Source: a virus
Direction: 5' to 3' (one strand)
DNA length: 31,734 bases
IMG/VR virus record: IMGVR_UViG_3300032011_003329
Coordinates: 1 to 31,734 of that record
Every line of letters starts with the position of its first letter. Within the stretch, counting starts at the first letter, position 1. Position numbers and translations under genes: made by a program. Below, in pieces: positions 442 through 17,761 of this stretch. Under the pieces are notes generated by a model, which did no database searches, had not been told where the DNA came from, and saw only the letters and a program-made list of their open reading frames with translations.

Positions 442-1061
442 ATATAGTTTTACTAGGCAAGGGTTCATTAGCTATCAAAGCGTGTGAGTGGATAAACTCA
501 AACACCGACTTTAACCTATTGGTTGTTGTCCCAGATAAACCTGAACCTGCTTGGACAGAATCAATATCTGACTGGGCTCTCACCAATAATATAACTTTAG
601 TTTCTTCTGGTAGATACCAAGACATACCTAAAGATGTAAATATAGATTTAGCAATTTCTATTTTTTATGGTAAAATTATCAAACAAGATTTTATTGATCG
701 CTGCGGAGACGTAATCAACCTACACAACAGTCCATTGCCGAAATACAGAGGCGTTAGACCAATCAACTGGGCTCTGAAAAATAATGAAGAAACACACGGC
801 GTTACTGTTCATAGGGTAACAAAAGGCATAGATGATGGTCCGATCTTAGGTCAAGTAGTTTACCCTATCTACCCAGAAATAGAAGAGGTGGAAGACGTTT
901 ACAACAAAGCTTTAGACTATGGCTGGCTTTTATTTAAAGATGTAATGACAAAATACGATTACGCCCGCAAACAGGCAAAACCACAAAAAGGCTTACACCC
1001 TTATTACAGTATGAAGATTGTAAGGTATTTAGGAGAAAGAGAGGGGTTCAGAAGATCATGA
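438..1061 (+). CDS. Formyltransferase of the methionyl-tRNA/sugar N-formyltransferase family
   Basis: This 207-residue protein has the core of the formyltetrahydrofolate-dependent transferase fold. The signature INLHNSPLPKYRG (about residues 93-105) matches the SLLPxYRG loop of Fmt and of sugar N-formyltransferases. The expected catalytic set is present: Asn94, His96 and Asp132 in GIDDGPIL. It is shorter than Fmt (about 315 residues) and lacks the C-terminal tRNA-binding domain, so it probably formylates a small molecule, most likely an amino-sugar nucleotide, rather than Met-tRNA. The aminotransferase and GDP-mannose dehydratase nearby could provide such a sugar. It begins in an ATGA overlap with the ThDP gene and ends in another with the oxidoreductase gene. 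Confidence 0.85.
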   Translation: MNIVLLGKGSLAIKACEWINSNTDFNLLVVVPDKPEPAWTESISDWALTNNITLVSSGRYQDIPKDVNIDLAISIFYGKIIKQDFIDRCGDVINLHNSPLPKYRGVRPINWALKNNEETHGVTVHRVTKGIDDGPILGQVVYPIYPEIEEVEDVYNKALDYGWLLFKDVMTKYDYARKQAKPQKGLHPYYSMKIVRYLGEREGFRRS

Positions 1062-1894: not shown

Positions 1895-2993
1895 TAATTT
1901 AAAAGCTCAGAATGACCCCCTTAAGCCAGCCTTCCTTGCTAAAGTTGAAACGCTGCTTGAAAAGGGCGATTACATATTAGGCGGAGAAGTAAATGAGTTT
2001 GAAGAAAGGTTTGCTGAATTTGTTGGTACGAAATACGCTGTTGGCGTAAGCAGCGGAACGGACGCAGTTAGGCTAGCGATAGAGTCTGTGATTGAAACAG
2101 ACAACACCCTAATCATAACGCAAGCAAACACATTTATCGCAACAGTTGTAGCGGCCAACCAAGCCTCCTGCAAAGCTCAACTCTGTTTGGTTGATATTGA
2201 TGATTATTACCAAATGGATATGGACGACCTTGAGTCTCGCCTAGAAGAAGCTTCTGTAGAGTATAAAGATGTTATCGTCATACCAGTCAGTATGTACGGG
2301 CACACCTTTGATAAAAGAAAGCTCGAAGAACTCAAAAATAAGTATAATTTTAAAGTTGTAGAAGATTCCTCACAAGCTCACGGTTCAAAGTTTTTTGATG
2401 GGAAATACTCAGGTTCTTTTGGTGATGTTTCTGCGTTCTCTCTTTATCCTGGCAAGAATTTAGGAGGTATAGGTGATGGCGGGGTATTGACCACGAATAG
2501 TGAAGAAATAAAAGACAAATTGCTTGCTTTAAGAAGTTATGGCTCAGTGGTTAAGTATGAGCATCCAGTTATAGGCTACAACAATAGGCTAGACACAATA
2601 CAAGCTGCGTTTTTAAATGAGAAAATAAAAGTCATTCATCAATACAATGACACGAGAGCTAATATAGCTGAAATTTATCACAATGAGATAAAACACAAAG
2701 ATATAGTCAACTTTCAAAATGCTGACTATTGCAAAAAAAACACATATCACATTTACCCCATCAGAACAGACAGTAGAGAAAAGTTAGTTAGTTATCTGTC
2801 AGACAAAGAAATACAAACAGGTATACATTACCCGATCCCAATCGAGCAAACAGGCGCGTTTGAGCTTATGTTTGCTGGTTTTAATAACAAAAAAACTAGA
2901 AATTTTTCACAAAAACTAATAAGCTTACCTATACATCCGTTCATGACTGAGAGAGAAGCATTGCACGTCGTTGATACTGTGAATTTATTTTAA
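1878..2993 (+). CDS. DegT/DnrJ/EryC1/StrS family PLP-dependent sugar aminotransferase
   Basis: The full-length 371-residue protein shows the family pattern: NDP near the N-terminus, SSGTDA at 58-63 for phosphate binding, VEDSSQAHG at 161-169 with Asp163 for the pyridine nitrogen, and FSLYPGKNLGG at 187-197 with Lys193 as the expected Schiff-base lysine. Members transfer an amino group from glutamate to a keto sugar nucleotide, either at C3 or C4. The start lies within the end of the oxidoreductase gene, with no clear Shine-Dalgarno. With the dehydratase at 4735 it could make GDP-perosamine; with the adjacent oxidoreductase it could make a 3-amino sugar. The sequence alone does not decide. Confidence 0.93.
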   Translation: MKILFNNLKAQNDPLKPAFLAKVETLLEKGDYILGGEVNEFEERFAEFVGTKYAVGVSSGTDAVRLAIESVIETDNTLIITQANTFIATVVAANQASCKAQLCLVDIDDYYQMDMDDLESRLEEASVEYKDVIVIPVSMYGHTFDKRKLEELKNKYNFKVVEDSSQAHGSKFFDGKYSGSFGDVSAFSLYPGKNLGGIGDGGVLTTNSEEIKDKLLALRSYGSVVKYEHPVIGYNNRLDTIQAAFLNEKIKVIHQYNDTRANIAEIYHNEIKHKDIVNFQNADYCKKNTYHIYPIRTDSREKLVSYLSDKEIQTGIHYPIPIEQTGAFELMFAGFNNKKTRNFSQKLISLPIHPFMTEREALHVVDTVNLF

Positions 2994-2995
2994 CT

Positions 2996-3895
2996 ATGAA
3001 ATGTTTAATTACTGGAGGCGCTGGGTTTATAGGCAGTAATTTAGCAGATGAACTATTACAAAGAGGGGATGAGGTTGTTGTAGTAGATAATGAATCAGCA
3101 GAAAGTAATCTAAAATTTTATTGGAACCAAAACGCTTCAAACTACCCTGTAGATATTTGTGACTACAATGCCTTAAGTTGGGTTTTTAGACATGAAAAAC
3201 CTGAAATAATTTTCCATATGGCGGCAGAAGCCAGAATTCAGCCGTCCATAAAACAACCACAAAAAGCTTGCCAAGTTAATTTTGTTGGCACTTGCAATAT
3301 TCTTCAGGCTGCAAGAGAATTTAAAGCTAAAAGAGTTATTTACTCCTCTACTTCGTCAATGTATGGCAGGATCAATACTCCGCCACTAGTGGAGACTATG
3401 CCTAAAGACTGTTTGACGCCTTACTCTGTTAGTAAAGCTGCTGGTGAAGACTTGTGCAGGGTTTACAATAACATCTATAGCGTTGAAACAATAACACTTA
3501 GATATTTTAATGTCTACGGCTCTAGACAACCAATTAAAGGTCACTACGCGCCAGTTATAGGTAAATTTATAGAACAAAAAAATGAAGGTAAACCTATGAC
3601 TGTGGTTGGGGATGGCCTACAAACAAGAGATTTTACTCACATAAAAGACGTTGTAAATGCTAATGTGCTTGCGGCGGAAACAAAAAAACCAGAAGCACTC
3701 GGCCAAGTGTTTAATATTGGAGCAGGAAAACCTTACACCATATTAGACATTGCAAAACTGGTAGGTGGTGAGTATATTCACATAGACGAAAGGCCAGGGG
3801 AAGCTAGGCATACGCTAGCTGACTGTGCTAAAGCTAGAAAAATTCTAGGCTGGAAACCTGAAAAATCTATTTCAGATTATTTAAAATTAATATAA
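2996..3895 (+). CDS. NAD-dependent epimerase/dehydratase (extended SDR)
   Basis: An extended short-chain dehydrogenase of 299 residues. GGAGFIG at 7-13 binds NAD, HMAAEAR near 74-80 is the second cofactor motif, YSSTSSMYG at 116-124 holds the catalytic Ser/Thr, and YSVSK at 143-147 gives the Tyr-Lys pair. LRYFNVYGSRQ is typical of UDP-glucose 4-epimerase and WbpP-like enzymes, so inversion at C4 of a UDP-hexose or N-acetylhexosamine is the best guess. It follows the aminotransferase stop by two bases and precedes the glycosyltransferase by one, so it is in the same operon. A dehydratase role cannot be excluded. Confidence 0.88.
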   Translation: MKCLITGGAGFIGSNLADELLQRGDEVVVVDNESAESNLKFYWNQNASNYPVDICDYNALSWVFRHEKPEIIFHMAAEARIQPSIKQPQKACQVNFVGTCNILQAAREFKAKRVIYSSTSSMYGRINTPPLVETMPKDCLTPYSVSKAAGEDLCRVYNNIYSVETITLRYFNVYGSRQPIKGHYAPVIGKFIEQKNEGKPMTVVGDGLQTRDFTHIKDVVNANVLAAETKKPEALGQVFNIGAGKPYTILDIAKLVGGEYIHIDERPGEARHTLADCAKARKILGWKPEKSISDYLKLI

Positions 3896-3896
3896 G

Positions 3897-4745
3897 ATGT
3901 TTTACGATTATATAATGTTTTTCAATGAGAACGATATCCTAGATATCAGGCTCCATACTCATGACCCAGTGGTAGACAAATTCATCATTGTAGAAGCGGG
4001 CCAAACTCACATGGGCGACTCTAAACCGTTTTTCTTTGATAAAGAAAGGTTTAAAAAGTTTGAAGATAAAATTATTTACATACAGATTCCATCCTTGGAT
4101 GAAGCTATGTCTCAATACCCAGAGATAGTTAAAAAAAGCGCAGCAGGCGGAAACGCTAGGGTTCATCACGGATGGGCAAGAGAAGAGTTTCAAATTAATT
4201 ATTTTTATAAGGTTGCTGAAGATATCGGCATTAAAGATGATGATATAGTTAGCTGGGGAGGGCTTGACGAAATTATAAGCGAAGACGGCTTTAAGCGCGG
4301 GATAGAAATAATAGAACAGGGCTTACCATCAGAGACGCATCACCAGCTAGCAACACCAATAGTTACTTACGAATGGGATTTAAGATGCTACAAACTTAAC
4401 TTAAAAGCTGCTTGGGGAGGACACGGCACATGCACAATGAAATATGCAGAAGCAAAATACGTCCCTTTTGCTATGGGCAGAGCTTTAAGCGTTTTTACTC
4501 ACACCGTTAAAGGACCAGTGGCTTGGCATTTATCATTTATGTCTAAAAATTCAGAAAATTTAGCTTATAAGTATAGGTCTTTTGCTCACGGCCCTGAGTG
4601 TGCTGACGGTCATGAAGCAGCTAACGCAGAAACAAAAGTGTTTAATAATTTTAATCTTTCAGAAGCAGAAATAGAAACCTTACCTCAATACATACAAGAT
4701 AACCCAGATTTATTTGAGGGTTATTGGTGGAAAAATGAAAATTAG
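3897..4745 (+). CDS. Glycosyltransferase family 17-like protein
   Basis: The 282-residue protein begins FYDYIMFFNENDILDIRL, followed by VDKFIIVEAGQTHMGDSKP, which closely fits the start of family 17 glycosyltransferases (beta-1,4-mannosyl-glycoprotein N-acetylglucosaminyltransferase-like). KDDDIVSWGGLDEII matches the family's acidic region, usually DD-hydrophobic-SDxDEI, which binds metal and nucleotide sugar. The family is known in eukaryotes and also scattered in bacteria and large viruses. Here it would attach a sugar to a cell-surface or virion glycan. There is no signal peptide or membrane segment, so it is probably cytoplasmic. It overlaps the dehydratase start by 11 bases. Confidence 0.82.
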   Translation: MFYDYIMFFNENDILDIRLHTHDPVVDKFIIVEAGQTHMGDSKPFFFDKERFKKFEDKIIYIQIPSLDEAMSQYPEIVKKSAAGGNARVHHGWAREEFQINYFYKVAEDIGIKDDDIVSWGGLDEIISEDGFKRGIEIIEQGLPSETHHQLATPIVTYEWDLRCYKLNLKAAWGGHGTCTMKYAEAKYVPFAMGRALSVFTHTVKGPVAWHLSFMSKNSENLAYKYRSFAHGPECADGHEAANAETKVFNNFNLSEAEIETLPQYIQDNPDLFEGYWWKNEN

Positions 4746-5793
4746 AAAAGTCATAGTCACAGGTATCTTAGGTCAGGACGGTGCTAACATGGCCGAGTAC
4801 CTCCTCAGAGACCCTAATTGTAGGGTGTTTGGTATGATGCGTAGAAGCGCTAACCCAAACTTCGAAAACACAGAAAAATTTGATGGACATGAGAATTTTC
4901 GGTTTGTTCACGGCGATTTAACTGACACTATCAGCATCGAAAACGTAGTAAAGAAAATAGAGCCAGATTATTTTATTAACTTTGCCGCCAATAGTTTTGT
5001 GGGGTGCAGTTGGGATATGCCACTGCATGTGATGGACGTGAACGCTAATGGAGTATTGCGATGTTTAGAGGCGATCAGAAATTTTAGTCCTAAATGTAGG
5101 TTTTACAGTGCGGGAAGTAGCGAGCAGTTCGGTGATGTGGATTACAGCCCGCAAGATATTAAGCACCCTATGAAGCCTAGAAGCCCATACGGGGCTTCAA
5201 AATGCGCTGCACATCACTTAGTTAAAGTATATAGGGAGTCCTACAATCTTTATGCCGTGCATGGTATCCTTTTTAATCATGAAGGGACAAAACGAGGAGA
5301 AGAATTTGTAACGAGGAAAATCAGCAAAGGTGTCGCAAGAATCTATCATCAACTCAGAGGCGGTTACGAAGAGTTTGAGCCAATTTCGTTAGGTAACATT
5401 TATGCTAAAAGAGACTGGAGCGACAGTGAGGATTTTGTAAACGGTATATGGGCTATGCTGAATGAGCCAAAGGAGCCTAAAGACTATGTGCTTGCTAGCG
5501 GTGAAACTCACACCATCAAAGAGTTTGTGGAAAAAGCTTTTAATTACGCAGGGATCAAGGGTCAATGGGTTGAAATAGAAGGTCGTCCTGAGAAAACTCG
5601 TTACATATATGATTGTGACGATAAGTATCACGACTTAGTTGTTATTGATTCAGAATTTTATAGACCAGCAGAGGTAGAACTGCTTCTTGGTGACTCAACA
5701 CCAATTAGAGAAGAAATAGGATGGAAGCCTAAAAGCTCGTTTAATGACTTAGTAAATAAAATGGTTAAACACGATATGCTGAATTACCAATAA
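4735..5793 (+). CDS. gmd: GDP-mannose 4,6-dehydratase
   Basis: Converts GDP-D-mannose to GDP-4-keto-6-deoxy-D-mannose, the precursor of GDP-fucose, GDP-rhamnose and GDP-perosamine. VTGILGQDGANMAEYLL is the Gmd form of the NAD motif (GxxGQDG). HGDLTD, FAANSFVG, SAGSSEQFG and the SPYGASK Tyr-Lys motif follow in order, and GILFNHEGTKRGEEFVTRKI is the diagnostic Gmd block, with one unusual change (EGTKRG where ESPRRG is common). I chose ATG 4735 (352 residues, MKIRKVIVTG) over a TTG at 4714: it puts the Rossmann fold at the N-terminus and has GGTGG eight bases upstream. The length is normal for the family. The stop overlaps the next start as TAATG. Confidence 0.93.
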   Translation: MKIRKVIVTGILGQDGANMAEYLLRDPNCRVFGMMRRSANPNFENTEKFDGHENFRFVHGDLTDTISIENVVKKIEPDYFINFAANSFVGCSWDMPLHVMDVNANGVLRCLEAIRNFSPKCRFYSAGSSEQFGDVDYSPQDIKHPMKPRSPYGASKCAAHHLVKVYRESYNLYAVHGILFNHEGTKRGEEFVTRKISKGVARIYHQLRGGYEEFEPISLGNIYAKRDWSDSEDFVNGIWAMLNEPKEPKDYVLASGETHTIKEFVEKAFNYAGIKGQWVEIEGRPEKTRYIYDCDDKYHDLVVIDSEFYRPAEVELLLGDSTPIREEIGWKPKSSFNDLVNKMVKHDMLNYQ

Positions 5794-6806
5794 TGGACAA
5801 AGAACACATATTTATACTTTATGATCAAGTAGCTAAATTAGAAGGGGAAAAACACCCTCGCAAAAACAAACTGTATTCAACTTTAAAAGCTCATGGGCAG
5901 CTTAGTGTTTTTTCTCAGCAAGACCTTTTTAGAATAGACAATTCGCATTATATAAATTTTTTATTTTACGATTTATACACAAAATTTTCAAAAAACAATT
6001 ATGTAAAAATTCACCCAATTATTTGGCATGGTAATGAGCTAGGGTGTAGGATGTTCTATGATCTGTTAAAATTTTATAATTTACATGAAAATCTTATTTT
6101 TATGGGTGAAGCGCCTCATACTCCAGCCAAAAAACTTAGCTTTATGAAACGGCCACTTGGAAAAGATTTTAATTTAGGTTTTTCTGATTTTGCCGATGAC
6201 TGGTTTAAAGAAAACACTTCAAAAGAAATAGTTGAAAAAATAACACAAGAAATTGGAGAAGAAGCCACGCAAGCGCCTAAAAAGGTTACACCGAACACAA
6301 TATCTATTATTTCTCAACCGACTACCGCTTTTGATTCTCTCTATCCTTTAAGATTCCCCCCGATAGATTTCCCTATTGCTATTAGATTGTTTTTAGAGAA
6401 AAAGTACAAAAACAATTTTAAAAATTTAAAAATACTTTGGCACTTACACCCCTCAGAAAAAGAAAAAAATGACTTACCTAAATACAGTTACGATCTCTTG
6501 GGTCTGCCGATAGCTTTTCCGAAAGGTTCAACTTACAAAGAAGTTTCAAATTCAGAATTAATAATCGGTTGGGACTCAACGGCTTTAATTAAATTGTTTT
6601 TCGCTGGATACGATAATGTTCACTCTCTAAAAGACACGCATTACTTAAACTACAGCAAGGACCGATTTATTACAGCCAGTAAAATTAATGCTTGTTCATT
6701 TCAAGTTGATAATTACGACAGCAAAGGTGAGTTTGATAAATTCATTTCAGATAAAGATACATATCAAAAACTTTGCTCTCCAAATGATATAAAATTTGCA
6801 TATTGA
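5793..6806 (+). CDS. Putative capsule-type glycosyltransferase, GT-B-like
   Basis: I do not recognise this 337-residue protein with certainty. Its C-terminal half has features of GT-B polysaccharide transferases of the capsule or polysialyltransferase type: ILWHLHPSEK, then SNSELIIGWDSTALIKLFFAGYDNVHSL. This resembles the HP motif and the serine-containing nucleotide-binding turn (G-x-S-T/S-x-L-x-x-x-x-x-x-G). The N-terminal half has a WHGNE block and is rich in Phe, Tyr and Lys. It is the last gene of the glycan operon and is translationally coupled to the dehydratase (TAATG). Its TGA stop lies inside the -35 of the next promoter. A role in moving the sugar made upstream is inferred from context. 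Confidence 0.5.
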   Translation: MDKEHIFILYDQVAKLEGEKHPRKNKLYSTLKAHGQLSVFSQQDLFRIDNSHYINFLFYDLYTKFSKNNYVKIHPIIWHGNELGCRMFYDLLKFYNLHENLIFMGEAPHTPAKKLSFMKRPLGKDFNLGFSDFADDWFKENTSKEIVEKITQEIGEEATQAPKKVTPNTISIISQPTTAFDSLYPLRFPPIDFPIAIRLFLEKKYKNNFKNLKILWHLHPSEKEKNDLPKYSYDLLGLPIAFPKGSTYKEVSNSELIIGWDSTALIKLFFAGYDNVHSLKDTHYLNYSKDRFITASKINACSFQVDNYDSKGEFDKFISDKDTYQKLCSPNDIKFAY

Positions 6807-6838: not shown

Positions 6839-7208
6839 GCTTAAAGGTCTAACAGATTTACAAAAATGCCAAGCGATAATCACTAGGTTTTTATCTCACA
6901 AGAAAAAAATCGGTTGGCCCAACCAAATGAAGCTTCTAAAAGAACTTCTTCTTATCATTCCAGATCACAATTTCTGGTATAATCTAGAACTTTCAACAAA
7001 AATCTCGTCACTGGCCTTCTTTAAAACAAAAGAAGGAAAACTAGTAGCTAACCTAGCTTATAAGAAAACCAAAATTGACTTGAATCCTCCTAAAGAAAAG
7101 GTTATATTAGGTGATAAAATTGGAGAAGATAAGAAAATAACACCAAAAAAACCTAAAACGCTGAAAGAATTTTTAAATGCCAAGACAGAAAAAAGAAAAG
7201 ACGAGTGA
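6837..7208 (+). CDS. Small lysine-rich protein of unknown function
   Basis: 123 residues from a GTG start placed at the predicted transcription start of promoter P1. The first ~55 residues look helical (KCQAIITRFLSHKK, MKLLKELLLIIPDHNFWYNL). The tail after residue 75 is very rich in Lys, Pro and Glu (about 80-123) and is probably disordered and basic. It overlaps the RecA-like gene by 32 bases, so the two are co-translated, and it may be a DNA- or recombinase-associated accessory protein. That role is inferred from position only. The start codon is the least certain part, since no Shine-Dalgarno is present and no ATG fits. Confidence 0.6.
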   Translation: MLKGLTDLQKCQAIITRFLSHKKKIGWPNQMKLLKELLLIIPDHNFWYNLELSTKISSLAFFKTKEGKLVANLAYKKTKIDLNPPKEKVILGDKIGEDKKITPKKPKTLKEFLNAKTEKRKDE

Positions 7209-8274
7209 AACTTCGCCTCTAGCTCAGATTGAGGCTTACCTAAACCAAAATAAGAACGACCATTACAACTTCGAGACAGAACATGTTTACACTGTCTCAA
7301 GTGGTAGCCTACTTTTAGATATCGAAATGAACGGAGGAATCCGTCCAGGTATCGTTAGAGCGACAGGAGTATCCGAAGGCGGCAAAACATCTTGCGCTTT
7401 GGCTTTTGCTCGCAACTTCCAAAAAGCTGACAACCACATGGTTATTTATATCAAAGCTGAAGGAAGGCTTTCTAACGGTATGATTGAGCGTGCGGGGGTT
7501 GATCAAGATGAAAAAAAGTGGTTTGTTTACAAAAGCAATGTTTACGAGTCTGTTGTTGATTTGATGCGAGATATGGTTCAAAATAACCCAGAAGATTATC
7601 GATACATGTTTATTATCGACTCTATGGATGCTCTGATTCCTCGCGGAGACTTGGAGAAATCTGCTGATGAGGCTGTGAAAGTTGCTGGCGGATCATTGAT
7701 TAGCTCCGCGTTTCTAAAACGTATGGCTTTGGGGTTAGCAACCCGTGGGCATATTTGCTTTATGATATCTCAGGTACGCAGCAAGGTGAGTATCAATCAG
7801 TACGTGAAAGAAGACCCAAAACTGACCAACGCTTCTGGTGGCAACGCTTTAATGCACTACAGCGATTGGATTATGGAGTTTCAAGAACGTTTTCAAAGAG
7901 ATATAATCAGAGAAGGTTCCACTAAAGATAGTAAAATTATTGGTCATCAATGTAATATTATTTTTAAGAAAACCCCGAACGAAAAAACTGGAGTGAGGGT
8001 TGAATACCCAATTAAATACGGGGCTCAAAGCGGCGAAAGCGTATGGGTAGAAATGGAAATCATGGAGATGATGAAAATGTGGGACATGGTGCAACAAAAA
8101 GGCGCATGGATCACGGTTGATGATTCCATTGTCGAGGAAGTAGCAAAAGCTACAGGAACTGAATTCAAAAAGCAGCACCAAGGGGAAGAAAACTTCCGCA
8201 AGTATCTAACAGAAAACAAAGACATCAAAGACTTCATGTTCAAGAAGTTTAAAGACGCCTACAAGCGAGCTTGA
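7177..8274 (+). CDS. recA: RecA-like recombinase
   Basis: 365 residues with the RecA core. GVSEGGKTS at 64-72 is the Walker A loop, KAEGRL at 93-98 is the position of the catalytic glutamate, FIIDSMDAL at 145-153 is Walker B, and ASGGNALMHYSD at 219-230 corresponds to the RecA GGxALxFYAS segment that ends loop L2. FMISQVRSK fits the strand before L2, which senses ATP hydrolysis. The protein would form filaments on ssDNA and drive strand exchange in phage replication and repair, like T4 UvsX or bacterial RecA. It lacks the long bacterial RecA C-terminal extension. The start lies within the upstream small gene with no clear Shine-Dalgarno. The stop TGA forms part of promoter P2. Confidence 0.9.
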   Translation: MPRQKKEKTSETSPLAQIEAYLNQNKNDHYNFETEHVYTVSSGSLLLDIEMNGGIRPGIVRATGVSEGGKTSCALAFARNFQKADNHMVIYIKAEGRLSNGMIERAGVDQDEKKWFVYKSNVYESVVDLMRDMVQNNPEDYRYMFIIDSMDALIPRGDLEKSADEAVKVAGGSLISSAFLKRMALGLATRGHICFMISQVRSKVSINQYVKEDPKLTNASGGNALMHYSDWIMEFQERFQRDIIREGSTKDSKIIGHQCNIIFKKTPNEKTGVRVEYPIKYGAQSGESVWVEMEIMEMMKMWDMVQQKGAWITVDDSIVEEVAKATGTEFKKQHQGEENFRKYLTENKDIKDFMFKKFKDAYKRA

Positions 8275-8306
8275 CAGGCTCGCAAGGTTAAGGCAAACTT
8301 GCTAAA
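8269..8306 (+). promoter_or_regulatory. Leaderless promoter P2 ahead of the nuclease gene
   Basis: GCTTGAC at 8269-8275 contains the -35 TTGACA (8271-8276). A 17-base spacer leads to CAAACT at 8294-8299, and the predicted start is the A of ATG 8306. CAAG at 8283-8286 and CTTG at 8298-8301 occupy the shared positions. The -10 is weak (C at its first base), which may imply an activator. Confidence 0.7.
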
Positions 8307-8830
8307 TGAAGCTCGGCGTAAACTTAAAAGATGATGACGACAGCATTCAGCGTGGGGCTGAAGGCGAAAACAACTTTGTAAAGGTTGCATCAACCAAGAA
8401 GTATAAAGTCCATAAGTCCTCCAAGATAGAGGATATGCATGGACATATAGATTACTGGCTTGAAAACGAAGCGGGAGATCGCAAGAGTGTTGATGTGAAA
8501 GGCAGGAAGAAGGCAAACAGAAGCGATACTAAATTTAGCGAGGATTGGGTCTGGATCGAATTTAAAAACGTGCAAGGGAAAAATGGCTGGGTAAAAGGCA
8601 AAGCAGACTTTGTAGCGTTTGAGTTTGAGAATTCTTTTCTGTTAGTTAGAAGAGATGAACTCAGGCAACTAGCTAGAGAACTAATCAAAGACCGCAGCAA
8701 GAGAGCGAGATATGGCGGAGAAGCTAAAAACATTTTATACTCCAGAAAAGATAGACCCAACGAGTTAATCACTCAGATTAGGGTCGCAGATATCAAAAAT
8801 AATCTGAAAACTTGGGAGTGGTGTAAATAA
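8306..8830 (+). CDS. PD-(D/E)XK nuclease-like protein
   Basis: 174 residues. The order E..G-HIDYWL-(10)-VDVKGRKK, with a likely metal-binding Asp in HIDYW followed by Asp-x-Lys in DVKG, is the PD-(D/E)XK nuclease core. WVWIEFKNVQGKNGWVKGKADFVAFEF behind it fits the final strands of that fold, as in small phage and archaeal endonucleases. A part in recombination or junction processing is reasonable, given RecA just upstream, but the DNA substrate is unknown. It has its own leaderless promoter. The last codons overlap a GGTGTAAATA motif just before the tmRNA, and the TAA stop is three bases before the tmRNA 5' end, so the two may be co-transcribed. Confidence 0.65.
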   Translation: MKLGVNLKDDDDSIQRGAEGENNFVKVASTKKYKVHKSSKIEDMHGHIDYWLENEAGDRKSVDVKGRKKANRSDTKFSEDWVWIEFKNVQGKNGWVKGKADFVAFEFENSFLLVRRDELRQLARELIKDRSKRARYGGEAKNILYSRKDRPNELITQIRVADIKNNLKTWEWCK

Positions 8831-8833
8831 TTT

Positions 8834-9236
8834 GGGCACGTACTGGTATCGATTTAAAGTCTTATACCAAACCGCAAGCAGAGGATGATAGTCGGCCTCT
8901 TAAAACATCTATCAAGGTAATTCAACTGCCAATAATGTTGATATGGCTCCTTCCGTAAGCGAAGCTGACGCGATTCTCGCTAAGTTTGGCTGGGCTGAAG
9001 AAGCTGCTGTAGCCGCGTAGGCTACCCGTCCTACTCTGGATGCTCGTTAAGGAGCTAGGGCGTCGATAACGAGCAAAAAAAGCTAGGATAGGAGTCGGTC
9101 TAGTCTAAATAAAGAGTCTCCAACCTCGCGTGTAGGTGTCAGTGATGAAGCGCGAGTTATTAACACTGACTAAGCTTGTAGTATGTTTGAGTAGGCGATT
9201 TTAAAGACAGGGGTTCAACTCCCCTCGTGTCCACCA
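8834..9236 (+). ncRNA. ssrA: tmRNA (transfer-messenger RNA), one-piece
   Basis: The two ends form an alanine-tRNA-like domain. GGGCACG (8834-8840) pairs with CGTGTCC (9226-9232), with one G-T pair; A is the discriminator and CCA is encoded (9234-9236). The T arm is a perfect 5-bp stem (AGGGG/CCCCT, 9209-9225) with loop TTCAACT. ACTGGTATCGA after the 5' acceptor strand matches the tmRNA D-loop signature. CAAAC/GTTTG (8868-8872, 9185-9189) and CAAGC/GCTTG (8875-8879, 9174-9178) fit helix P2. A pseudoknot precedes the tag (GAGG 8881/CCTC 8896 with GATAG 8887/CTATC 8909). Downstream are an 8-bp stem GCTCGTTA 9042/TAACGAGC 9067 and a pseudoknot CTCGCG 9125/CGCGAG 9151 with GTCAGTG 9138/CACTGAC 9164. 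It rescues stalled ribosomes together with host SmpB. Phage-borne copies are uncommon. Confidence 0.95.
8928..9020 (+). other. tmRNA tag-peptide reading frame
   Basis: The resume codon is most likely GCC at 8928, 14 bases after the first pseudoknot. The frame reads ANNVDMAPSV at the start and WAEEAAVAA at the end, then TAG at 9018-9020: 30 residues in all. An Ala-Asn-Asn start and a small hydrophobic AVAA end are typical of degradation tags read by ClpXP or Tsp-type proteases. The length is far above the common 8-15 residues. Confidence 0.85.
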
Positions 9237-9244
9237 ATTTAACA

Positions 9245-9664
9245 ATGAGACTGTACAATATCAGAGGCAAGCTTCAGAGCAAGTCTGTCACGAAATACCT
9301 CGTGGATTGGGATAAAAAGTCTCGCTCAAAGCTACAATTCAACACAAAACAGTTCTTTAGAGAATACTGGGAAAACCACATAGTCTACGAAGAGTTTCCT
9401 GTTTACGGCTCTAGAATGAAAGTAGACATTGTTAATGCTACTAAAAAAATCGCGGTAGAAGTCAACGGTCAACAGCACGACGAATTCAACAAGTTTTTCC
9501 ACTCAAACTCTAGAACAAAGTATCTACAATCAATTAAAAGAGACGCCGAAAAACGCCAATGGCTAGAACTCAACAACTTTATAATTATCGAAATTTATGA
9601 AAAGGATTTACAGAAGCTAAGTATCTCTTACATTAAAAAACTTTACGGTATTTCTATTGTGTAA
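9245..9664 (+). CDS. Restriction endonuclease-like PD-(D/E)XK protein
   Basis: 139 residues from ATG 9245 (MRLYNIRGK). A GTG at 9227 is in frame but lies inside the tmRNA acceptor stem, so I reject it. VYEEFPVYGSRMKVDIVNATKKIAVEVNGQQH holds the core of a DUF559/Vsr-like nuclease: a helix Glu, Asp in KVDIV, and Glu in VEVNGQQH, where Asn or Gln replaces the usual Lys. The C-terminal half (KRDAEKRQWLELNNFIIIEIYEKDL) fits the following helix and strand. The ATG is only eight bases after the tmRNA CCA, so the message may be released by tmRNA 3' processing. Repair, host-DNA attack or a homing-type role are all possible. Confidence 0.6.
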   Translation: MRLYNIRGKLQSKSVTKYLVDWDKKSRSKLQFNTKQFFREYWENHIVYEEFPVYGSRMKVDIVNATKKIAVEVNGQQHDEFNKFFHSNSRTKYLQSIKRDAEKRQWLELNNFIIIEIYEKDLQKLSISYIKKLYGISIV

Positions 9665-9672
9665 TTAAAATT

Positions 9673-9969
9673 ATGAGCAACCAACCTACAGACGTAGATA
9701 AAATCTTGATGCGCCAAATCAATGAGAAAGCAAATGGCGGCTTTATCATGTTTTCTTTTGGAGAAGATGGCTATCCTGTTGTAAACAGTCACTTTGATGA
9801 CGCTTCAAAAGCCTTAGCGTTGCAGCACTATATAACAAACTGGAGTATGGCTATAGATGCTGTTACATTAGAAAACACAGTTGCTGATATGGAGAACCAA
9901 ATGATGGATGACGATATGCCTCCTCCCGAAACCGACGACGAAGATAACCCATTTGACGATTTAGACTAA
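9673..9969 (+). CDS. Small protein with acidic C-terminal tail
   Basis: 98 residues, not recognised. The first 65 appear folded (MSNQPTDVDKILMRQINEKANGG, FSFGEDGYPVV, ALALQHYITNWSMAIDA). From about residue 70 it is almost wholly acidic with Met and Pro, ending DNPFDDLD. Acidic tips of this kind occur in ssDNA-binding proteins and in phage proteins that contact helicases, primases or polymerases. It sits nine bases after the nuclease gene and just before the helicase promoter, so a replication accessory role is a guess from context. No Shine-Dalgarno is visible before ATG 9673. Confidence 0.6.
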   Translation: MSNQPTDVDKILMRQINEKANGGFIMFSFGEDGYPVVNSHFDDASKALALQHYITNWSMAIDAVTLENTVADMENQMMDDDMPPPETDDEDNPFDDLD

Positions 9970-9971: not shown

Positions 9972-10009
9972 GCTTGACTTGGATTCAAGTGGATGTTAAG
10001 CTTGCGGTA
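9972..10009 (+). promoter_or_regulatory. Leaderless promoter P3 ahead of the helicase-primase operon
   Basis: -35 TTGACT at 9974-9979, 17-base spacer, -10 TAAGCT at 9997-10002, predicted start at the A of ATG 10009. CTTGA (9973-9977), TCAAG (9985-9989) and CTTG (10001-10004) are present. The first two form a perfect inverted repeat with a 7-base gap. Confidence 0.78.
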
Positions 10010-11511
10010 TGAGTGAAATCTATTCCCTACAAATTGAAAGGCATGTGTTAGGGGGATTGATCAAATATCCCGATATCTTTCCTGAGATTGACGGTTTTGT
10101 TACGGAAAAAGACTTTTTCAATAACGTTCATCACACTATTTTTAATGTAATAAAAAGCTGTGCGTATCAAAACGAATCAATAGATAAGGTAATTCTAGCC
10201 ACAAAAATCAAAGAATTAGGCGTATCGTTCAAGGACGACATTAACGTATACGACTATATCGAAAACATCAGTTTCGCATCAATTCAGCGAAATGCCGTCA
10301 TAGAATCCGCCAAAGAACTGATTAAGTTCAGGATGAGAAGAGAGATTGAATCGACAGGTAAAAAACTAAGGCAAGAGGCTGAAACCAACGGAAGCAAAGA
10401 CATTGATAAAATCATAGCTGATTGTGACGCGATTTATAATAACAAAATATCTGGCTATGTAGAAACAGATCAGCCAGAAAAAATCACAGATGGTTTATTA
10501 GACTTAGTTGAAGAAGCAGGTAACACCCCCGAAGACGAGAATGGCTTGCAATCACCATACGAAGAGTTTAACAGGCTTTACGGTGGTTTTAAATGCGGCC
10601 ACATATACGCTATTTGCTCACGACCAGGTGAAGGTAAAACAACTTGGCTAGCAGATGTTTGTTTCAAGACCGCCAAATACAACAAAGTTAAGGCTCTGTA
10701 CTTAGACACAGAGATGACCACTAAAGAAATTAGATTTAGAATGGCAGCGGCCATTTCAGGAGTACCTAGCTGGTACTTGGAGACAGGTCAGTGGAGGAAA
10801 AATGAAAATTTTCATCAGCGAGTAAAAGCTGCCGAATCCAAACTCAAAGAAGATAACGACTTTTATCACATGCATGTGTCAAACAAGAGTATTGATCAGA
10901 TATGCAGCTTAATTAAGCGTTGGTATTATAACGAAGTCGGTAGAGGTAATCAATGCTTAGTGGTTTATGACTATGTGAAATTAACTGGTGAGAAAGTCGG
11001 CCAAAACTGGGCCGAGTATCAAGCAATCGGGGAGAAGATCAATAGACTCAAAGAGGTCGCTGAAGAAGTAAATTCCCCAATGCTTACAGCTATGCAACTT
11101 AACAGGTCTGCTGAAGGCACAAACAGGGTCGATAACAGTTCGGCCATCTCCCTATCAGACAGGCTACAGTGGTTTGCTGCGTTTGTGGGCATCTTCAGGC
11201 AGAAGGACGAGGACGAACTGCTCCTTGATAATGAGTATGACGACAATGGTAACATAACCCGCGATTTTGGCACTCACAAGCTGATACCAGTTAAAAGTCG
11301 ATTTCAGGGTAGAGACGCTATGGGCCATGCCGATTACCTACGCAGGGTGTATCCTGACGGCTCCCAGAAGAATGTTGGGAACTACATTAACTTTAACCTG
11401 CAAAACTTTGGAGTTACGGAAATGGGCTCACTAACGCATATATGCGAACGTGCGCGTGAAATCTACTCCGCTGATGACGGCAGTCCTAATGATGGGGATG
11501 TTGACCTGTGA
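10009..11511 (+). CDS. dnaB: Replicative DNA helicase, DnaB family
   Basis: 500 residues. Residues 1-150 match the DnaB N-terminal helical domain (ERHVLGGLI, then helical repeats). From about 185 the RecA-like motor follows: CSRPGEGKTTWLAD at 203-216 is Walker A, YLDTEMTT at 231-238 holds the catalytic Glu, CLVVYDYVKL near 320 is Walker B, and TAMQLNR is motif H3 with its polar Gln. The hexamer unwinds the fork 5' to 3' and recruits primase, whose gene overlaps this stop by GTGA. The predicted message starts at the ATG (promoter P3), with no ribosome site. The length is close to bacterial DnaB (about 470). The C-terminus ends in an acidic stretch. Confidence 0.92.
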   Translation: MSEIYSLQIERHVLGGLIKYPDIFPEIDGFVTEKDFFNNVHHTIFNVIKSCAYQNESIDKVILATKIKELGVSFKDDINVYDYIENISFASIQRNAVIESAKELIKFRMRREIESTGKKLRQEAETNGSKDIDKIIADCDAIYNNKISGYVETDQPEKITDGLLDLVEEAGNTPEDENGLQSPYEEFNRLYGGFKCGHIYAICSRPGEGKTTWLADVCFKTAKYNKVKALYLDTEMTTKEIRFRMAAAISGVPSWYLETGQWRKNENFHQRVKAAESKLKEDNDFYHMHVSNKSIDQICSLIKRWYYNEVGRGNQCLVVYDYVKLTGEKVGQNWAEYQAIGEKINRLKEVAEEVNSPMLTAMQLNRSAEGTNRVDNSSAISLSDRLQWFAAFVGIFRQKDEDELLLDNEYDDNGNITRDFGTHKLIPVKSRFQGRDAMGHADYLRRVYPDGSQKNVGNYINFNLQNFGVTEMGSLTHICERAREIYSADDGSPNDGDVDL

Positions 11512-12431
11512 AGAAGATAGAAAACATCAAAGAGGTACTCCTTGAGTTGGGTTACAGTAACATCATGGACACACCGAAGGCTTATAGGGCTAGGCCGATA
11601 TACAGAGACTCAGATAATAATACGGTACTATCCATAGATAAAACCAGCGGCCATTTTATTGACTTTGCCAGAAATATTACTGGCAGTTTTGATGACCTAG
11701 TAAAGCTATCACTTAATCTCACAACGATTGAGGAAGCTAGAGTTTGGCTGTCAACAAAGACAGTCTCAGTCTCTATCGAAAGGGTTCAGAAACCCGAAAT
11801 ACAAATGTCAAAGATTTACTCGCCAAGCCTGCTAAACAAACTCCATCAAGACCACTCTTACTGGGAGCAAAGGGGCGTTTCTACGTATTCTGTTAGTGAG
11901 TTTAAAGGCGGCGTAAGCAAGAGCGGTAAAATGCAACACAGATATGTTTTCCCTATATTTAACGGAAAGAACGAAGTCATAGGTTTTGCTGGTAGAGACT
12001 TACTACAGATAGAAAATAACAAGCGGCCAAAATGGAAACTCATTGGTGACAAATCAATGTGGAAGTACCCACTTTTTCTTAATTATAAATTATTAAAATC
12101 TGAAAAACGAGTTATAATAGTAGAAAGCATTGGTGACATGCTTTCACTGTGGGACGCTGGTATTAAAAACGTAGTAGTGTCTTTCGGTTTGTCTTTAAGT
12201 TCTGGATTAGTAAACACTCTCTTAAGATACGACATATCCGATATCATTGTTTCGTTTAATGATGACAGCGAAAACAATGGCGCTGGCAATAGAGCGGCTA
12301 CTAAAGCAAGAAATAAACTTTTAAATTACTTTGATCCAAGTCAAGTTAGGGTTATATTTCCTACTCTTGGCGATTTCGGTGAAATGAGTAAACAGCAAAT
12401 ATCAGATTGGATGGGTAAAATAAATGGCTAA
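11508..12431 (+). CDS. dnaG: DNA primase, DnaG/TOPRIM type, without zinc-binding cysteines
   Basis: 307 residues from GTG 11508, which overlaps the helicase stop as GTGA. RYVFPIFNGKNEVIGFAGRDL at 145-165 is the DnaG basic core motif, and KWKLIGDKSMWKYPLF fits the next segment. The TOPRIM catalytic domain follows: VIIVESIGD at 202-210 (Glu206), FGLSLS near 226, and VSFNDDSENNGAGNRAA at 248-264 with the metal-binding acidic residues. The N-terminal 70 residues resemble the DnaG zinc domain in shape (ARPIYRDSDNNTVLSID, FIDFARNITGSFDDLV), but all the cysteines are gone. It lacks the C-terminal helicase-binding domain of bacterial DnaG. It would make RNA primers at the fork. Confidence 0.85.
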   Translation: MKKIENIKEVLLELGYSNIMDTPKAYRARPIYRDSDNNTVLSIDKTSGHFIDFARNITGSFDDLVKLSLNLTTIEEARVWLSTKTVSVSIERVQKPEIQMSKIYSPSLLNKLHQDHSYWEQRGVSTYSVSEFKGGVSKSGKMQHRYVFPIFNGKNEVIGFAGRDLLQIENNKRPKWKLIGDKSMWKYPLFLNYKLLKSEKRVIIVESIGDMLSLWDAGIKNVVVSFGLSLSSGLVNTLLRYDISDIIVSFNDDSENNGAGNRAATKARNKLLNYFDPSQVRVIFPTLGDFGEMSKQQISDWMGKING

Positions 12432-13430: not shown

Positions 13431-14183
13431 ATGCTACCACTTTTTAAATCACATTATTCAATCGGTAAATCAATCTTGACCCTTGAGGAAGAAGGCTCCT
13501 CTGTCGAGGATGGCCCTCAATCAATCATCGATCTATGCAAAAAGAATGACATGAAGGAGTTGTTTTTAGTTGACGACTCCATGAGTGGTTTTTTGCAGGG
13601 CTACCTAAACAGTGAGAAAGCAGACCTCAAGTTTAGGTTTGGCCTAAGAATTAGAATCTGTGAGGATTCAAATGAAAGAAACGAAGAGCAGAAGAAGAAA
13701 ACCTCAAAAGTAATTCTGTTCGCTAAAACCAAGGAAGGGTATAAGCGGTTAATTAAAATTTATACCCAAGCAGCACAACAGGGCTTTTATCACGGGCCTA
13801 GAACCGATTACAAAACGCTTAAAGACAACTGGAGCAACAAAGACTTATCATTAATGGTGCCGTTCTACGACTCATTCTTACACCTTAACACTCTACATGG
13901 TTATATGTGTATGCCTGACCTTAGTTTTTGCGACCCAGTTTACGCGGTAGAAAACAATGACATCCCATTTAATTTTCTTATTCGCAAAAGAGTAGAAGAA
14001 TTTTGCAAGCAAGATAAGTGCGTCGAAGTGAAAAGCGTTTTTTATAACAAAAAAGAAGACTTCAAAGCTTTCTTAACATTTAGATGCATTAACAAAAGAA
14101 CCACTCTCGACAAGCCAAATCTAGACCACATGACAAGTGATGAATTTTGCTTAGAGAGCTTCCTTCAAAAAAGCTTGACCTAG
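13431..14183 (+). CDS. DNA polymerase III alpha subunit, N-terminal PHP domain as a separate protein
   Basis: 250 residues that match only the start of bacterial DnaE: FKSHYSIGKS in place of FxHLHTxYS, PQSIIDLCKKNDMKELFLVDD in place of the x-x-ITDH strand, FRFGLRIRI in place of KPIIGxE, and VILFAKTKEGYKRLIKI in place of the LLAKNxxGYxNLIKL segment. The end, DHMTSDEFCLESFL, aligns with the DnaE segment (HYLKSPEEMxxLF) just before the polymerase body, which is at 15215. Most PHP metal ligands are missing, so it is probably structural, holding the polymerase or exonuclease. No intein sequence is seen at its end. The last codons contain the -35 of promoter P4. Confidence 0.72.
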   Translation: MLPLFKSHYSIGKSILTLEEEGSSVEDGPQSIIDLCKKNDMKELFLVDDSMSGFLQGYLNSEKADLKFRFGLRIRICEDSNERNEEQKKKTSKVILFAKTKEGYKRLIKIYTQAAQQGFYHGPRTDYKTLKDNWSNKDLSLMVPFYDSFLHLNTLHGYMCMPDLSFCDPVYAVENNDIPFNFLIRKRVEEFCKQDKCVEVKSVFYNKKEDFKAFLTFRCINKRTTLDKPNLDHMTSDEFCLESFLQKSLT

Positions 14184-14210
14184 CATCAAGTATGATATAT
14201 TCTTGATATA
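14174..14210 (+). promoter_or_regulatory. Leaderless promoter P4 ahead of the cupin-exonuclease-polymerase operon
   Basis: -35 TTGACC at 14175-14180 lies inside the end of the PHP gene. A 17-base spacer leads to -10 TATTCT at 14198-14203, and the predicted start is the A of ATG 14210. CTTGA (14174-14178), TCAAG (14186-14190) and CTTG (14202-14205) match the other members exactly in position. Confidence 0.78.
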
Positions 14211-14575
14211 TGAAGTCAGGAATGATTCAAGACGTTAAAGTGGTAGGGAAAAGCTGGGGTACAGAAGAGTGGTTCGCTAACAACGAAGCCGAAGACTATT
14301 GCGGCAAAGTCCTGACGATAGTAGAAGGCGAGTCAACCTCAATGCACTACCACGCTGACAAGCATGAGACATTTTTTGTTTTACAAGGCTCTCTAAAGGT
14401 CGATTGGATTGACACAAAGCAAGGAGTGGTAAATACCACGATCATCGGTTGTGGAGGCGCTATGGAAATGCCTCGTAATAGACCCCATAAATTAACAGCA
14501 AACAATGGTAATGTTAAATTAATTGAAGCGAGCACCTTTCACCGCGACGAAGATAGCTTTAGAGTATACAGATAA
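14210..14575 (+). CDS. Cupin-fold protein, mannose-6-phosphate isomerase/sugar-isomerase like
   Basis: 121 residues forming one cupin barrel. SWGTEEWF near the start and SMHYHADKHETFFVLQGSLKVD at 45-66 give cupin motif 1 (HxH, Glu, Gly). MPRNRPHKLTA followed by LIEASTFHRDEDSFRVYR gives motif 2 and the ending typical of phosphomannose isomerase-type cupins. The metal ligands are probably His47, His49, Glu54 and His88. Single cupins like this are found in sugar clusters and in many large phages; the substrate is unknown. If it is an isomerase it could supply mannose-6-phosphate for the GDP-mannose branch at 4735. Its place inside the polymerase operon is odd. The stop overlaps the exonuclease start as TAATG. 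Confidence 0.78.
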   Translation: MKSGMIQDVKVVGKSWGTEEWFANNEAEDYCGKVLTIVEGESTSMHYHADKHETFFVLQGSLKVDWIDTKQGVVNTTIIGCGGAMEMPRNRPHKLTANNGNVKLIEASTFHRDEDSFRVYR

Positions 14576-15213
14576 TGGACGAACATTTACTCAGATACGA
14601 CAAAGAAAAGACTTACGTCTTTATTGATTGTGAGACACTAAACCTATGCTTGAATAGCTGCCATAACCTTCCTTGGCAAATTGGCATGATCAAGGTCATT
14701 AACGGCAAGATCGTTGACCAGAAAGATATCTATATCAAATGGGACACTGACCTTAAAATCAGTGATGATGCCGCTAGGATCACTCGTTACGATCAGAGGA
14801 AGATTGATCGGCTTGGCGTAAAGCCAGAGGACACTTTCGGGGTTATAGAAGAATGGTTAGACTCATGCGATTACATTGTGGGTCACAACACTCTAGGGTT
14901 CGACGTTTACTTAATTAAGGATTATTATAAATTCATGGGTAAATCCTCCGAACACTTATACCCCAAGTTTATCGATACGAATGCCATCGCAAAAGGAATT
15001 AAGATGGACATGCCATACAAAGCTGGCGAAGACCTACTAGAGTATCAATACAAAGCCTACCACACTATAAAGAAAGGCGTTAAAACCAACCTCACCGCCT
15101 TGGGTAAAGAGTTTGAGATTGATGTTGATTACAACAACTTGCATGATGCAGTCAACGATCTGATATTAAACATTAAAGTGTGGGACAAGCTGAAGTGGCA
15201 GATAGAAATATAA
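14575..15213 (+). CDS. dnaQ: DnaQ-like 3'-5' proofreading exonuclease
   Basis: 212 residues of the DEDDh family. FIDCET holds Asp18 and Glu20 (Exo I), VGHNTLGFD at 102-110 holds Asp110 (Exo II), and LHDAVNDL at 189-196 holds His190 and Asp195 (Exo III). All five catalytic residues are present, so it should be active. It is translationally coupled to the cupin gene before it and lies two bases from the polymerase gene after it. A proofreading subunit for the phage polymerase is therefore the natural reading, like epsilon of the bacterial Pol III core. It lacks a clear beta-clamp binding motif. Confidence 0.9.
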   Translation: MDEHLLRYDKEKTYVFIDCETLNLCLNSCHNLPWQIGMIKVINGKIVDQKDIYIKWDTDLKISDDAARITRYDQRKIDRLGVKPEDTFGVIEEWLDSCDYIVGHNTLGFDVYLIKDYYKFMGKSSEHLYPKFIDTNAIAKGIKMDMPYKAGEDLLEYQYKAYHTIKKGVKTNLTALGKEFEIDVDYNNLHDAVNDLILNIKVWDKLKWQIEI

Positions 15214-15214: not shown

Positions 15215-17761
15215 ATGGAGAACTTTACTAAATCTTTTGTTGATTACAATCTTGACATTCACGGCGTAAGACTGCCGCAGTTCGAGATTAGTGACGAATA
15301 CAAGCAAGAAGCTGAAGCGGGTAGTGATTGCAGTAACTATGACTTTTTAAGAAAGCTGTGTCTGAATCGCTTTTCTAAGCTTGGCCTCAAGAAAGGAACG
15401 CAAAAGTACGATAAATACGTTAACAGGATTAAGTATGAGCTTGAAACACTTAAAGACTTAGGTTTTATCGATTATGTATTGTTGGTTTGGGATGTTATTA
15501 ACTTCTGCAAGATAAGTGATATCCCTGTTGGTCTTGGGCGTGGTTCTGCCGCTGGAAGCATAGTTTTATATCTTATTGGTGTTACTGGGATAGACCCGAT
15601 TGAGCATGATCTATATTTTGAGAGATTCATTTCAAAAATCCGAGCCAAGAAAAAGGAAGTTGACGGGATCACTTATCTCGATGGCTCACTGATGTGTGAT
15701 GTTGACTTAGACATCTGCTACTACCGTCGCCAAGAGGTTATTAAATACCTTGATGAAAAGTTCGTTGGTAAAACATCAAAAATCTTAACCTTGAATACAC
15801 TGAGCGGTAAGCTGCTCATGAAAGAGTGCGGTAAGATTGTTGCTGAAAAAAACGAAACCGAAGCAAATGAAGTCTCAAGCTTAATTCCAAAAACCTTTGG
15901 TCAAGTAATGGACATTAAACAAGCTTACGGAGAAGAGGAAAAGTTTAAAGCTTGGTGCGATGACAATAAAGAGACTTACAATATCGCCCTAAAACTCAGA
16001 AGCCTTATCAAAAATAAAGGCGTACATGCTTCGGCTATATCTCTATCCTACGACCAGATGGAAGACACTTGCCCGTCCGAGCTTACTTCTCAAAAAGACG
16101 CGGTAGTTACATCTTATGACGCAGATTGGATTTCGATTTTTAATGTTAAACTCGACCTGCTAGGTTTACGTGGCGTGTCTGTGGTTGATGATGTTTGTAA
16201 GCAGGTTGGTATTAAAGTTACCGATATTGATTTAGATGACCCGTTTATTTACAGACAGCTACAAGACTTTAGGTCTCCTCACGGATCATTTCAGATCGAA
16301 GCTAACACCAACTTCAAGGTCTGCCAAAAGGTTAAACCGAAGAATTTAGAAGAGCTTAGTGCGGTTCTAGCGTTGGCACGGCCAGGAGCCATGAACTTCA
16401 CAGATCAGTACGCAAATTATACGAACAATGACGTGTACGAGGCTATCCACCCCTTCTTTGATGATATCCTAAAGGAAACGGGCGGCGTGGCTTTGTACCA
16501 AGAGCAGCTAATGAAGATGGCTAATAAGATTGGCTTTACGCTTGATGAAGCGGAAATCTTGAGGCGGATTGTTGGTAAGAAAAAACGCTCAGAGGCGCTT
16601 AAGTGGAAGAAGAAGATTAAAGACAAGATTAAAGAAAAAAGCCTTGATGAAGAGATTGGTAATATTCTCTGGCAAATCCTTGAAGACTCAGCTAATTACT
16701 CATTCAATAAGAGTCACAGTGTAAGCTATGCAGCTTTAGCAGCTATCACAGTCTACTTGAAATTTAAATACCCGCGACAGTTCTTCCTGAGCTTGCTTAA
16801 GATGTCTCGTCACGAGCCAAGCCCAATAGAAGAGATTTCAAAAATCCACAAAGAAATGGATTTATTTGACATTAAACTTTTACCGCCTCACTTAACAAAA
16901 TCCAATATGGACTTTTCCATTGAGGGTAACGATATCCGTTTCGGATTGCTGTCAATCAAGGGGGTGTCAGATAAGGCTGTCGAGAAAATCAACGATTTTA
17001 AGAATGAGTATTCCACAAAATTTGAGGTTTTTGCCGCCGCAAAAGAAGCGAAAGTAAATGTTGGCGTGCTTTCAGCTTTGATTCAAGCTGGAGCTCTCGA
17101 AGGATTTAAACAGTCCAGAAGCAAGGTTGTGCTTGAGGCGCAGCTTTGGAACGTGCTGCATGTCAAAGAGAAGAAATTCGCAATGAAATTTGCAGATAAG
17201 TTCAATCATGATCTTATTGAGATTGTTAAGCATCTGAAGACTTTTCAAGATGAAAAAGGTAAGATTGTTATCCCTGAATCTAGGTACGAAACCATCAAGA
17301 AGAAATACCTGCCATACAAAGAAATTTACGACTTAAACAGTAAATCCGAATTTTTTGCTAACTGGTATTACGAAAAAATGCTCTTGGGATACACTTACAA
17401 CAAAACACTCAGGGATATCTTTTCAAGTAAGAGAGAAGGGCTAACGTCCGTTCGCAGCGTTAACGGTCTGGCAGAACGCAACAAGGTAGTTTTTATTGGC
17501 CAGATAGAAGACTGTTGGAAAGGCAAATCTAAAAACGGCAACAAGTATTACAAAATGGATGTCGCTGATGAGACTGCTACCTCAAAAGTAATGATTTTCA
17601 ACGACAAGATGGATGATTGCCAGTCACTTAACAATGGGCTCCCACAAAAGGGTCAGATTGTTATTGTGAAAGGCTCAACCGCAGATGGGGTGGTATTCGC
17701 TGATTTAATTAGCGTGCAAGACAACAAAGTATATACCAAACTTTCTGAGCTTAAAAGTTGA
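15215..17761 (+). CDS. dnaE: DNA polymerase III alpha subunit, catalytic part without PHP domain
   Basis: 848 residues. The start, NFTKSFVDYNLDIHGVRLPQF, aligns with the DnaE segment directly after the PHP domain, so this is the second half of the divided protein. PVGLGRGSAAGSIVLYLIG at 104-122 is the palm entry motif. CDVDLDICYYRR at 161-172 holds Asp162 and Asp164, and KLDLLGLRG at 312-320 holds Asp314, the third catalytic Asp. NKGVHASAI, LARPGAMNF, GGVALYQEQLMKMA and SYAALAAITVYLK are thumb and finger blocks of DnaE. The helix-hairpin-helix region (VLSALIQAGAL) and a C-terminal OB fold (VVFIGQIEDCWKGKSKNG onward) follow. It replicates phage DNA with the adjacent exonuclease. The stop TGA lies inside the -35 of promoter P5. 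Confidence 0.93.
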   Translation: MENFTKSFVDYNLDIHGVRLPQFEISDEYKQEAEAGSDCSNYDFLRKLCLNRFSKLGLKKGTQKYDKYVNRIKYELETLKDLGFIDYVLLVWDVINFCKISDIPVGLGRGSAAGSIVLYLIGVTGIDPIEHDLYFERFISKIRAKKKEVDGITYLDGSLMCDVDLDICYYRRQEVIKYLDEKFVGKTSKILTLNTLSGKLLMKECGKIVAEKNETEANEVSSLIPKTFGQVMDIKQAYGEEEKFKAWCDDNKETYNIALKLRSLIKNKGVHASAISLSYDQMEDTCPSELTSQKDAVVTSYDADWISIFNVKLDLLGLRGVSVVDDVCKQVGIKVTDIDLDDPFIYRQLQDFRSPHGSFQIEANTNFKVCQKVKPKNLEELSAVLALARPGAMNFTDQYANYTNNDVYEAIHPFFDDILKETGGVALYQEQLMKMANKIGFTLDEAEILRRIVGKKKRSEALKWKKKIKDKIKEKSLDEEIGNILWQILEDSANYSFNKSHSVSYAALAAITVYLKFKYPRQFFLSLLKMSRHEPSPIEEISKIHKEMDLFDIKLLPPHLTKSNMDFSIEGNDIRFGLLSIKGVSDKAVEKINDFKNEYSTKFEVFAAAKEAKVNVGVLSALIQAGALEGFKQSRSKVVLEAQLWNVLHVKEKKFAMKFADKFNHDLIEIVKHLKTFQDEKGKIVIPESRYETIKKKYLPYKEIYDLNSKSEFFANWYYEKMLLGYTYNKTLRDIFSSKREGLTSVRSVNGLAERNKVVFIGQIEDCWKGKSKNGNKYYKMDVADETATSKVMIFNDKMDDCQSLNNGLPQKGQIVIVKGSTADGVVFADLISVQDNKVYTKLSELKS

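Follow-up and report, generated by a model that had tools for sequence, protein, structure and literature searches.

A one-piece phage tmRNA with a long, conserved and apparently virus-specific tag in uncultured aquatic viruses

Reports of tmRNAs in phages go back two decades, and in the published work we came across no reason for a phage to need one of its own. The DNA analyzed here (the window) is an entire IMG/VR virus record, linear and 31,734 bases long, in which a tmRNA gene with a long tag reading frame lies among replication genes. Our overall proposal, which we regard as likely, is that the locus encodes a functional phage tmRNA that rescues ribosomes in the early or middle phase of infection via host SmpB and attaches a degradation tag specified by the phage.

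A complete tmRNA gene among replication genes

The single RNA gene that ARAGORN finds in the window is a tmRNA (ssrA) of 403 nt at 8834-9236 (+), and Infernal with Rfam 15 places the ends of RF00023 at identical positions. The match covers model positions 1-374 of 374 and scores 121.6 bits (E 2.5e-47), far above the gathering score of 47 bits. The standard form is the best Rfam match, ahead of the permuted alpha, beta and cyano models, and the ARAGORN call is unpermuted, so the gene is not of the two-piece type of marine phages. Every part named in an earlier, sequence-only reading of this DNA (acceptor stem, T arm, CCA and D-loop signature) was found, and where that reading counted at least two pseudoknots, four can be drawn. 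The acceptor stem pairs GGGCACG (8834-8840) with CGTGTCC (9226-9232), followed by the discriminator A and an encoded CCA, which ends the gene (9226-9236 for the 3' strand with its tail). The D-loop-like element reads GG...TCGA, the T arm AGGGGTTCAACTCCCCT lies at 9209-9225, and the connector helix P2 joins 8853-8879 to 9174-9205 in a structure drawn by hand and compared with an alignment of 20 relatives. The third acceptor pair is G:U, the identity element of alanyl-tRNA synthetase, and this G3:U70 pair is present in 77/77 distinct tmRNAs from relatives and in 20/20 sequences of the alignment.

In the 20 relatives, 92.5% of the cells are paired, compared to 40-49% when the partners are slid by 1-3 columns, and two-sided changes occur in 39 of 81 helix pairs against 15.3 in shuffles. 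The T arm is 100% paired. Pseudoknots PK1 (8881-8913; both stems 99-100% paired, two-sided changes in 6 pairs) and PK2 (9027-9074; 97-100%, 9 pairs) are the best paired of the four, and the lowest pairing among the helices is found in PK3 and part of PK4. PK3 (9083-9121) is the most variable, with main stems 64-73% paired, an isolated closing pair at 95% and two-sided changes in 7 pairs. The lower values within PK4 (9125-9170; 78-98%) are partly due to the alignment, which shifts there between two types of relatives. Judged by sequence and covariation, the gene very probably encodes a working one-piece phage tmRNA.

The gene is tightly packed between its neighbors, beginning 3 nt after the stop codon of one gene and ending with a CCA 8 nt before the next ATG. 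The upstream gene (8306-8830, +) encodes a 174-aa protein with neither a Pfam nor a PHROG match; by eye, its VDVKGRK motif hints at a PD-(D/E)XK nuclease. Its place beside the tmRNA is confined to the closest relatives, and a 29% identical protein is encoded near the tmRNA of a phage-like contig from an alphaproteobacterial MAG (L115). Before it lies a RecA/UvsX-like recombinase (7177-8274, +; PF00154 3.5e-18, phrog_97, synteny), which in many relatives is the 5' neighbor of the tmRNA, sometimes with one small gene between. Directly 3' of the tmRNA, a 139-aa nuclease-like protein (9245-9664, +) starts at ATG 9245 and not at a GTG inside the tmRNA. It has weak PHROG matches to homing/HNH endonucleases and no Pfam match, and it occupies this position in 22 records. 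A small operon protein of 98 aa, conserved by synteny (9673-9969, +), a DnaB-like helicase (10009-11511, +; phrog_19 2.8e-58), a DNA primase (11508-12431, +; phrog_47 2.1e-21) and a DnaE-type DNA polymerase (15215-17761, +; phrog_405 1.3e-154) follow. Many relatives keep the order recA, (small gene), tmRNA, nuclease-like gene, (98-aa protein), dnaB, primase. In other members of the tag family to which the window belongs (family A, below) and in a second family (family B), the tmRNA is located elsewhere, in family B often beside an HNH-like gene, which then follows it.

This position within the recA-dnaB-primase-polymerase run, with gaps of 3 and 8 nt, points to early or middle expression. Thus, of the sequence-only reading, the complete phage-encoded tmRNA stands, while a late replacement of the host copy does not fit. 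Its further suggestion, rescue on leaderless messages, is likewise dropped: a Shine-Dalgarno survey of the window, made for host type, found no excess. A lack of such motifs does not show that transcripts are leaderless, and starting without a leader does not by itself produce non-stop ribosomes. A search of 31 viral records, which are mostly fragments, yielded no SmpB (the control recovered 10/14), and this absence argues for dependence on the SmpB of the host.

The rest of the window has some features of its own. The DnaE-type polymerase looks split, as an ORF with a PHP domain (13431-14183), one with a cupin domain and one for a proofreading exonuclease (13431-15213 overall) precede a polymerase body of 848 aa at 15215-17761 without PHP. 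By eye, positions 1-6806 hold sugar-nucleotide genes (formyltransferase-like, DegT-like aminotransferase and two epimerase/dehydratase-like) that adjoin the replication operon and perhaps modify the host surface. A structural-looking protein at 25029-26441 (-) carries a Ser/Thr/Ala/Pro low-complexity stretch, SSATSSSATSSSTGPSSSS...

The tag frame and selection on its peptide

The tag ANNVDMAPSVSEADAILAKFGWAEEAAVAA comprises 30 codons, from GCC at 8928 to 9017, and is closed by TAG at 9018-9020 (+). This agrees with the 30 residues read earlier, and also with the estimate of two to three times the usual size, as the commonest tmRNA tag has 10 aa (PMC11915505) and known tags span 8-35 aa (PMC8012679). 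Directly 5' of the resume codon lies CAACU (8923-8927), whose A at -4 is the counterpart of E. coli A86, the base that sets the tag frame (PMC2481249); the frame begins four bases past it. At -1, 52 of 53 contexts from families A and B mixed have a T, in a count for which the A at -4 was a selection rule. In the window, the ARAGORN tag call (EADAIL...) begins 11 codons late, which is a choice of the program; the full 30-aa frame is called in two close relatives. For the tag alone, structure prediction gives a short helix at residues 10-19 with a mean pLDDT of 74, a weak result from a single sequence.

Relatives were collected through the DnaE polymerase and then by two pattern scans of IMG/VR. 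A tmRNA above the cut-off was present in 17/30 and 6/50 DnaE-related viral records, and altogether 77 distinct tmRNAs were extracted from IMG/VR viruses and one phage-like MAG contig. The tags of 41 belong to family A, with 30-35 aa and the consensus A..[VI]DM(E.)APS[LV].EAD[AE]ILA.FG..EE...AA. A second long-tag family, B, accounts for 34 (24 aa, consensus AKTAKYKGHISARVSLVE.TASVA) and appears as AKTAKYKGHISARVSLVEETASVA on many IMG/VR contigs, e.g., L097, L099-L105 and L206-L262. CCA is encoded in the window, as in the other members of family A that were inspected, and is not encoded in family B. The remaining two comprise one with a run of N in the tag and the one on the phage-like contig of the alphaproteobacterial MAG. 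In the latter (L115:15064-15498, also L281), an open frame, read by eye with a guessed resume codon, might encode a tag of ~45 aa, longer than the 8-35 aa given in reviews. By DnaE, DnaB or tail protein, the window virus has no close isolate phage. Two related viral records (G027 and G028, L106-L113) hold tRNA gene clusters, with Val, Arg, Gly and Leu in both and additionally Ile, Thr, Ala, Pro and Glu in G028, and these clusters could aid host finding.

The search patterns partly inflate the conservation of the tag, in columns 18-24 of family A (the EAD-ILA stretch) and in residues 1-10 of family B. As the pattern scans bias these stretches, dN/dS was recomputed with the pattern columns removed or for the relatives that DnaE had retrieved. 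Family A has a dN/dS of 0.25 overall and 0.24 without pattern columns, and family B 0.15 and 0.29, respectively; for relatives retrieved by DnaE alone, the values are 0.30 (A) and 0.15 (B). Across all tests the tag frame lies at 0.14-0.30, while the two shifted frames reach at least 0.94. The frame is thus kept in related phages, with dN/dS well below 1, and its length varies among them by whole codons. These two properties indicate that the tag is maintained for its peptide, in the interior as well, and selection on the interior at the peptide level is, from the alignments, very probable.

An apparently virus-specific tag and its possible purpose

A profile of the family A tag recovered 11/11 viral records in a control (E 1e-15 to 1e-21), including tags outside the profile, and detected no tmRNA tag in 398, 385, 395 and 388 bacterial genomes (~1,560). 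The sets of 398 and 385 represent the phylum and class around the alphaproteobacterial MAG and may overlap, while the 395 surround a Flavobacteriaceae MAG and the 388 a Verrucomicrobiales MAG. Each group is covered thinly, with no Cyanobacteria or Actinobacteriota in the sample, and the group labels were inferred, partly from alpha_tmRNA matches in the relatives of the MAG. Two profile matches below 0.001 in bacterial genomes are not tmRNAs. The alphaproteobacterial tags examined are short, e.g., ANDNRAPVALAA. Tag A is therefore apparently virus-specific as far as the sampled bacteria go, and it is probably a label of the phage's own that unfinished proteins receive.

A host assignment through the nearest GTDB relatives of DnaE was rejected, as these are ~50% identical and lie on MAG contigs of several phyla, probably as binning noise. 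The ARAGORN-called tags of the MAGs holding them are short (GENNYALAA, ADSNELALAA) with two exceptions: a Woesebacteria MAG has two calls of ~21 aa, and the other is the copy carried by the phage-like contig.

The proposed working of the tmRNA starts with transcription together with the early or middle replication genes, after which host RNases would excise it from the operon transcript. Host alanyl-tRNA synthetase would charge it with alanine, and host EF-Tu and SmpB would carry it to ribosomes stuck at broken messages, which are expected to be common during infection, with nucleases at work in the cell. The ribosome would then switch to the tag frame, add the 30 residues specified by the phage, ending in ...AVAA, and stop. 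Ending in Ala-Ala is the usual signal of the ClpXP type. The interior, which is under selection, would most likely bind a particular host adaptor or protease, and unfinished chains would thereby be destroyed on the terms of the phage.

An alternative account is that the gene provides plain backup, i.e., extra rescue capacity with an ordinary ClpXP tag whose interior fits the adaptor of an unsampled host, without any redirection. The tag start A-N-[ND]-N and the end AxVAA do resemble the alphaproteobacterial tags ANDNRAPVALAA and ANDNHAPVAVAA, and many phage tmRNAs have short, ordinary-looking tags such as ANSNFALAA in Streptomyces phages. However, the tag occurs in none of the sampled bacterial genomes, and the end signal alone hardly explains 20 additional residues with invariant interior positions. 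We regard backup as a serious contender that falls somewhat short of an even chance. The RNA might also act as a decoy that occupies SmpB and stalled ribosomes and blunts host trans-translation instead of tagging, as a short form with the tRNA-like domain in mycobacteriophage DS6A inhibits tmRNA (PMC4131195; PMC11915505). A decoy has no use for a tag, yet the tag frame, the stop codon and the frame-setting A are all kept, which makes this improbable.

Conservation of the tag stretch could in principle serve RNA structure rather than the peptide. In the DnaE-found subset, synonymous variation is reduced in the EAD-ILA stretch (pS 0.20, compared to 0.52 for the whole tag), and CUCGCU in the tag appears complementary to the 3' strand of PK2. 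A switch based on this pairing was considered and rejected because codon-shuffled tags pair equally well, and the contrast in dN/dS between a tag frame well below 1 and two other frames at 0.94 or more also speaks against it; we give an RNA role of the stretch very little weight. Least credible of all is a captured host ssrA or an attachment-site relic without function. ssrA genes commonly serve as integration sites (PMC11915505), but this tmRNA is complete, strongly covarying and syntenic in the operon of many viruses, and no bacterial copy with its tag was found in the sampled genomes.

Redirection of the phage-specified tag to another protease, which the earlier reading had suggested, is a possibility. 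That the interior alters the choice of protease or adaptor relative to the host tag is a tentative claim, and we would sooner doubt it than assert it. More doubtful still is the broadest version, in which widespread uncultured aquatic phages would reprogram protein disposal in their hosts, with the virus-only interior acting as a second degradation or binding signal that leads to another protease, adaptor or fate. With a long tag that is under selection along its length, occurs in dozens of viruses from aquatic settings and is missing in ~1,560 sampled bacterial genomes, the purpose of phage tmRNAs becomes testable.

Comparison with known tmRNA systems

The window tmRNA has all structural parts in common with the standard one-piece bacterial tmRNA (RF00023), and differs in a tag three times the commonest length (PMC11915505). 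A precedent for such length is found in Mycoplasma, whose extended tag is read by Lon according to work cited in PMC3985003 (Gur and Sauer, 2008; Ge and Karzai, 2009), so that the added length serves a different protease. The Mycoplasma tag is cellular, ends in AFA and belongs to bacteria without ClpXP; its likeness to the phage tag is one of length. Redirection of tagging becomes more credible with this precedent, together with purifying selection on the whole tag and its absence from the sampled bacteria.

Among phages, tmRNA was reported in 402 of 18,146 genomes surveyed; 50 of 53 two-piece forms were aquatic, while only 2.5% of the one-piece forms were marine, so that marine tmRNAs are mostly two-piece (PMC9004378). 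Melnitz, a marine myophage of OM43, and a group of SAR11 phages also encode ssrA in a marine setting, for which rescue or tagging of host proteins was proposed; however, the Melnitz tmRNA is two-piece (permuted), unlike the one-piece form in the window (PMC9004378). Tags are short in Bacillus phage G and in Streptomyces phages. A parallel in form is offered by the Bxz1-like mycobacteriophages (ET08, Pio), which likewise have a one-piece tmRNA with a long tag of 25 aa, ATDTDATVTDAEIEAFFAEEAAALV. Their gene lies in a tRNA cluster, whereas that of the window lies in a replication operon. Homology between the two tags was rejected, as the ..AEEAA likeness is one of composition (917 of 2000 shuffles were as good). 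The curated tmRNA database took its viruses from RefSeq (PMC11915505), and our results suggest that further tag families, not covered by it, are present in viral metagenomes. Collectively, phage tmRNAs, some with a 25-aa tag, were already known; the novelty lies in a large family of aquatic, uncultured phages whose one-piece tmRNA carries long, conserved and apparently virus-only tags and, in part of the family, is located in the replication operon.
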